Source of the DNA: a virus | Virus record (IMG/VR): IMGVR_UViG_3300018891_000001 | Span: 151,871-215,870 of that record | Length of the DNA: 64,000 nt | Direction: 5' to 3' (one strand) | Part shown: positions 57,028 through 57,822 of the stretch, piece by piece | Layout: each line of letters begins with the position of its first letter | Numbering within the stretch: the first letter of the stretch is position 1 | Notes under the pieces: model-generated | The model's input: the letters and a program-made list of their open reading frames with translations, nothing else | Database searches by the model: none | What the model was told of the DNA's origin: nothing | Made by a program: the position numbers and the translations under genes

Positions 57028-57713
57028 TTATTTCTTATCCAGAATTTTGACTTGCACCATTACATCCCCCATTGAAACATGAGCATGAGGTACGTAATAG
57101 TCGATATCATACCCTTTGATCAAGCGACCTGTATCATCTGCTCGACGCTTTTCAGTGCGTCCATCCGGCCATTTAATAAGCACCCACGTACCAAGCGGAA
57201 TAATATTAGGATCTACAGCAATTGTAACTCCTTCTTCAGTAGGTCGCCCACTCGCAGTAATGCCATAGCCCGGATCGCCTGGACGTTTTCCAGTAGACTG
57301 ATAGTTATTATCATAAAAGGTTAAACGAAAATAAATCCATTCCCCTTCTCGTTGACCACGGAAAACTACGGGGTGCTTTTGAACTTTTTTTCTAATTCAG
57401 CTACCTTTTGCCTATAAACCTCTAATCTTCTCCGGAGGTCTTCAGTCTCCTTAGTTAGTCGATCGATTTCCATTTCAGACTGCTCTAATAAACCATTCAC
57501 CTTTTTCATTTCCTGATGTAATTGTTGATTTTCTTGAAAAAGGTCTTCATTTTTTTCAAGCACTTCTGTGTACTTTTCGCTCAACTTTTCGTGAGACTTA
57601 CGAACCTGTTTTAAGTCACTTTTGAACGAATAAAAATGAAGGGCTAGAGCAATAGAAGAAACCGTCGTTCCTGCTAGAATTAAGCGAGTTATCGTACGTG
57701 TCTTCTTCTTCAT
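57028..57713 (-). CDS. Membrane-anchored coiled-coil 3D-domain cell-wall protein, apparently made by -1 frameshifting
   Basis: ATG 57713 opens a frame of 115 residues with a signal/membrane helix (residues 9-28) and a coiled coil (about 35-110), stopping at 57366. The following 118 codons (57028-57384) have no start codon and encode a complete 3D domain with AVDP, ADDTG and DIDYY, the three catalytic Asp residues. At 57384-57390 (minus strand) A AAA AAG is in the right phase for -1 slippage, joining the frames into a 228-residue protein. A mutation or homopolymer sequencing error is the alternative. Similar to YabE/YuiC-like wall lytic enzymes. Confidence 0.75.
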
Positions 57714-57751
57714 GCTTCGACTCCTTTATTTTATTCCCCTGTATCACTTCT

Positions 57752-57822
57752 CCCCAAGTTTATCATAAAACTTGGGGTAAATGCAAGGCATTACATCAAT
57801 ATATTACTTGTAATGCCTATCA
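57752..57822 (-). promoter_or_regulatory. Promoter with upstream operator pair, 3D-domain gene
   Basis: Minus strand TTGCAT (plus 57781-57786), 18-bp spacer, TAAACT (plus 57757-57762); the spacer and -35 region resemble the promoter at 42668. Operators at 57782-57795 and 57809-57822 form an inverted pair (AGGCATTACA / TGTAATGCCT). A 10-bp inverted repeat CCCCAAGTTT/AAACTTGGGG (57752-57777) lies over the -10. Confidence 0.6.

Follow-up and report, generated by a model that had tools for sequence, protein, structure and literature searches.

A candidate −1 frameshift at A AAA AAG between a membrane-anchored coiled coil and a 3D domain in a large phage and related Bacillus plasmids

Frameshifting by −1 at the heptamer A AAA AAG is known from dnaX, where it underlies the tau and gamma products (PMC5009743) and where an SD motif and a hairpin serve as stimulators (PMC3711429). 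In the IS3 family, orfA and orfAB are nested products without and with a C-terminal catalytic domain (PMC5009743). Ribosomes of Bacillus also slip by −1 on a lysine AAG codon, namely at CGA AAG in the cdd gene of B. subtilis (cited in PMC5009743); this different site is incidental and merely extends the protein, adding no catalytic domain. On the protein side, the closest described systems are the 3D-domain/Sps proteins YuiC, YocH, and YorM, the last from a phage, together with MltA. One of the three aspartates of the 3D domain is catalytic in YuiC (PMC4499186).

The phage gene analyzed here shares the heptamer and the −1 direction with dnaX, and its predicted products are nested like those of the IS3 family. 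In contrast to dnaX, however, it is the long product that would arise from the frameshift. The class of slip is thus already known, whereas its context, a gene for a membrane-tethered cell-wall enzyme within a phage replication module, would differ from that of dnaX and IS3. No description of programmed frameshifting onto a peptidoglycan-cutting domain was found in the literature searched, the coverage of which was incomplete.

Gene structure and identity of the 3D domain

The virus record IMGVR_UViG_3300018891_000001 comprises 215,870 bases, and its final 64 kb, the whole stretch that was analyzed (64,000 nt), are called the window. The host of this phage of about 216 kb is probably a Bacillus-type bacterium. 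The features of the gene are compiled in Table 1. A preliminary description had proposed a programmed −1 frameshift that joins a coiled coil to a 3D domain. It was based on a 3D frame devoid of a start codon, on an in-phase A AAA AAG from which a −1 slip leads directly into that frame, and on a stop five codons past the slip site, which separates a short form of 115 residues from a long form of 228 residues. All three features were confirmed on the minus strand. The heptamer conforms to X XXY YYZ and lies in phase where the two frames overlap. From 57396 to its TAA, the −1 frame contains no stop, and none of the codons ATG, GTG, and TTG occurs in it until codon 69 past the heptamer, a position deep within the domain.

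Table 1. Features of the frameshift locus in window coordinates
Feature	Position	Strand	Remarks
Copy of a recurrent palindromic motif (TGTAATGCMTTGCA)	57782..57795	−	Candidate operator/promoter element 5′ of the gene; conserved in relatives
Ribosome binding site AAAGGAG	57721..57727	−	Precedes the ATG at 57713
Zero-frame ORF, short product	57366..57713	−	115 aa; putative N-terminal membrane anchor (about residues 10–27) and coiled coil
SD-like AAAAGG	57404..57409	−	Candidate stimulator, modest; 13 nt 5′ of the heptamer
TGA of the −1 frame, shortly before the heptamer	57397..57399	−	Upstream boundary of the interval in which a shift could occur
Slippery heptamer A AAA AAG	57390-57384	−	Seven As, then G; in phase, codons GAA AAA AAG
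Zero-frame stop TAG	57368-57366	−	Five codons 3′ of the heptamer
−1 frame after the slip	57028..57390	−	Linker and 3D domain up to the TAA at 57028; fused long product of 228 aa
Pfam 3D match	57082..57225	−	Residues 164–211 of the fusion; conserved Asp168, Asp194, Asp205

The hydrophobic membrane anchor and the coiled coil of the zero frame were read from the sequence; family searches with this half yielded matches of the coiled-coil type only, all of them below the Pfam cut-offs. The domain in the −1 frame matched PF06725 (3D) with 4e-9 (36.9 bits, cut-off 23.8) and B. subtilis YuiC, also with 4e-9. When its AlphaFold model (pLDDT 75) was compared using Foldseek, the best matches were YuiC and MltA, with moderate TM-scores of about 0.5. 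All three aspartates after which the domain is named are retained. A profile match, the three aspartates, and an MltA/YuiC-type barrel place the domain in the 3D/MltA-YuiC group, and sequence and model predict that the long form is a lytic transglycosylase of the MltA/YuiC type tethered to the membrane. Unlike in YuiC, YocH, YorM, and MltA, the catalytic domain follows a membrane anchor and a coiled coil and is encoded in the −1 frame. The family phrog_6631 matched the fused 228-aa protein from residue 30 to residue 225 and hence spans the junction and both halves. In the window and at three further loci (L008, L009, L010), 3D-domain genes adjoin phage or plasmid replication genes (DNA polymerase, ligase, RecA/SSB cluster), not lysis genes.

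Conservation of the split and selection on both frames

The same split into two frames, with an identical heptamer, was found at the same syntenic place in B. halotolerans NZ_CP114067, B. paralicheniformis NZ_AP025341, three B. licheniformis plasmids, and one IMG/VR contig. The heptamer was identical in L001/L012, L002, L003, and L004, and GAAAAAAAG was invariant in the alignment. The split members represent three lineages, i.e., the window, B. licheniformis/B. paralicheniformis, and B. halotolerans, and the effective sampling is likewise three because all split members derive from one event. The zero-frame stop stays close behind the heptamer in each of them. When the helicase and the RecA-like proteins served as queries against 399 genomes of the order, 400 of the class, two small orders, and IMG/VR, no further split members were found. 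The replication blocks of the plasmids of about 200 kb (NZ_CP114067, NZ_AP025341, NZ_CP035189, and similar) are syntenic with the 216-kb virus record, which suggests that these plasmids are phage-plasmids.

The relatives also delimit the site of the frame change. The −1 frame of B. licheniformis has a TGA immediately 5′ of the heptamer, and therefore, the change does not occur earlier. The zero frame of B. halotolerans has a TAA immediately 3′ of the heptamer, and therefore, the change does not occur later. The two stops localize the frame change to the heptamer and, if the site is homologous across the lineages, would pin it to these seven bases. Across the phage, 17 in-phase A_AAA_AAG sites were counted in about 57,000 codons versus 18.6 expected; a depletion in its other genes was not seen, and the heptamer alone is therefore ordinary. 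Its presence within the frame overlap of about 10 codons has a chance probability of about 0.3%, and two further lineages have conserved it at this place.

Strong purifying selection acts on the out-of-frame 3D domain. When the window was compared with the Bacillus plasmids, dN was 0.155–0.172 and dS 1.63–2.33, resulting in dN/dS values of 0.067–0.105, and a dN/dS of 0.054 was obtained between the two Bacillus plasmid lineages. Such values are unlike those of a gene that was broken in an ancestor and is not expressed. The preliminary description had also considered that the run of seven As might be a sequencing or mutation artefact, and a homopolymer does sit at the break. However, a sequencing error or a pseudogene is effectively excluded because the dN/dS of the downstream frame is only 0.05–0.11; furthermore, the break and the seven-A run recur in five independently deposited plasmids and the IMG/VR contig. 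The proposal of a programmed frameshift, in contrast, is supported by this selection and by the conservation of split and heptamer, with both frames under selection in the three lineages.

RefSeq carries two genes on the Bacillus plasmids, the second of which encodes a separate 97-aa 3D protein from a TTG start. That the 3D domain is translated independently from such an internal start is nevertheless very improbable. The TTG falls within the first barrel strand (residues 20–29 in the model), the window has no ATG, GTG, or TTG at this place, and a stand-alone domain would be devoid of any export signal. Internal start, sequencing error, and pseudogene were thus all rejected, as the 3D frame of the window has no usable start codon upstream of the domain, the split is conserved, and the downstream frame is selected. 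The standard two-gene annotation of these plasmids is likely wrong, and the TTG start of the second gene is probably artefactual.

Ribosomal and transcriptional slippage

With a probability of roughly three quarters, we favor the reading that one gene is decoded in two ways, into a short anchor-coiled coil and, via a −1 slip at A AAA AAG, into a longer form with the 3D domain. Most ribosomes would remain in the zero frame and stop soon after the heptamer, yielding a single-pass membrane-anchored coiled coil of 115 aa. A fraction would slip back by one base with two lysyl-tRNAs on AAA AAG, which re-pair on AAA AAA, and would read on into the 3D/MltA-type domain, yielding a membrane-tethered muralytic enzyme of 228 aa.

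That the slip itself is ribosomal frameshifting is probable. Alternatively, RNA polymerase might add one A within the A7 run, so that some of the mRNAs are read straight into the 3D frame; the products and their ratio would look alike. In every lineage, the A run is part of the interval to which the frame change was pinned, and Thermus dnaX takes this route on nine As (PMC3711429). However, programmed slippage of RNA polymerase goes along with longer A runs (n > 7), the threshold being a homopolymer of more than seven As or eight Ts (PMC3711429), and all members have just seven As, flanked by G. Runs of this length are common in the genes of the phage (30 were counted), and the run at the junction is in exactly the phase of the best heptamer for ribosomal slippage. 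Transcriptional slippage is thus rather unlikely, and ribosomal frameshifting is favored over it as the run comprises only seven As.

A downstream hairpin or pseudoknot is common at −1 frameshift sites, but not universal. No shared structure was found 3′ of the heptamer, and the z-scores were mostly near 0, with a single value of −2.6. Regarding the SD-like AAAAGG/GAAGG 13 nt upstream, 6% of the background positions were as good in the window and about 18–20% in the relatives. Neither of the two dnaX stimulators is clearly conserved here, which, like the lack of depletion of the heptamer in the other genes of the phage, deviates from a textbook signal. A phage-encoded tRNA-Lys was not found.

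The zero-frame half (57384-57713; L002 3086-3427, L003 3084-3425) showed an unusually low synonymous divergence, which was below that of the neighboring genes in every pair. For the two plasmids, pS was 0.13 compared with 0.5–0.6 in the neighbors, and 92 of 101 codons were identical versus 62.4 expected; between the window and B. halotolerans, the respective numbers were 40 of 56 and 25.9. An antisense ORF or an RNA structure as the cause was considered and rejected, as none was conserved, and an Rfam scan gave nothing above the threshold. Recombination or an RNA-level element are possible reasons for this low divergence.

The 5′ leader upstream of the gene (57714-57795), ATGATAAACTTGGGGAG(A)AAGTGATACA, is conserved in all three split lineages. 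Pairing with CCCCAAGTTT allows a strong hairpin in the leader of the window, whereas the relatives do not have this hairpin. The palindrome TGTAATGCATTACA is present upstream of the 3D gene in the relatives as well. Window-wide, it has 19 matches with at most two mismatches versus 1.35 expected, e.g., at 2068, 15847, 17252, 26012, 42632, 52402, and 57782. It looks like a phage operator, which perhaps overlaps with promoter −35 elements.

Origin of the split and possible role of the short form

At the same locus, Paenibacillus plasmids, five IMG/VR sequences (L013-L017), and one genome locus (L113) have a single continuous ORF without a heptamer at the junction. These orthologues align across the frame junction and share the gene order of small genes, SSB, and RecA-like gene, where the locus reaches that far. 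Together with phrog_6631, they resemble the split gene in the architecture of anchor, coiled coil, and 3D domain as well as in the position beside the conserved small genes, SSB, and RecA, and they differ from it in the uninterrupted ORF that has no slippery site at the junction. In the preliminary description, homologues that are continuous in one frame and have no slippery site had been named as evidence against the frameshift. Such homologues do exist among the more distant relatives, but the closest relatives, for which a conserved slippery site had been asked about, are all split and all keep the heptamer. Both the 3D-domain tree and the RecA-like protein tree united the split members in one clade, with a support of 99–100%. 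As the outgroups at the same locus are continuous, the frameshift is therefore derived, and, most simply, it would have arisen once.

This polarity is relevant for the purpose of the split. A one-base indel in an ancestor might have disrupted the continuous gene, and slippage on an A-run that happened to be there might rescue enough of the long product, while the short form and the ratio of the two have no selected role. The continuous outgroups at the same locus, the derived state of the split, and the lack of strong stimulators would all fit such a compensated old indel. On the other hand, the split has persisted unreverted through about 1.6–2.3 synonymous substitutions per site, and a stop has been kept near the 3′ side of the heptamer in every lineage. 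A compensated indel has less than an even chance of being correct and nevertheless is a serious alternative to a functional short form. It concerns the purpose and overlaps with the dual decoding favored above in the decoding step; the confidences in the two thus do not sum to one.

With dual decoding of one gene, the long form would be expressed from a replication and recombination gene cluster, and the short form would represent the same anchor minus the enzyme. We infer that both products accumulate from a ribosomal slip and that the short form may moderate or scaffold the enzyme by coiled-coil pairing. Tentatively, and with somewhat lower confidence than a compensated indel deserves, the phage-plasmid clade might have evolved the frameshift to fix the ratio of anchor to transglycosylase. 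Hetero-oligomers would then limit an early cell-wall enzyme that is potentially harmful to its own cell, and the synonymous conservation of the anchor half would reflect a controlling RNA element. As continuous relatives exist at the same locus, this case shows how an uninterrupted gene gave way to a frameshift, and it makes the purpose of the short form directly testable.
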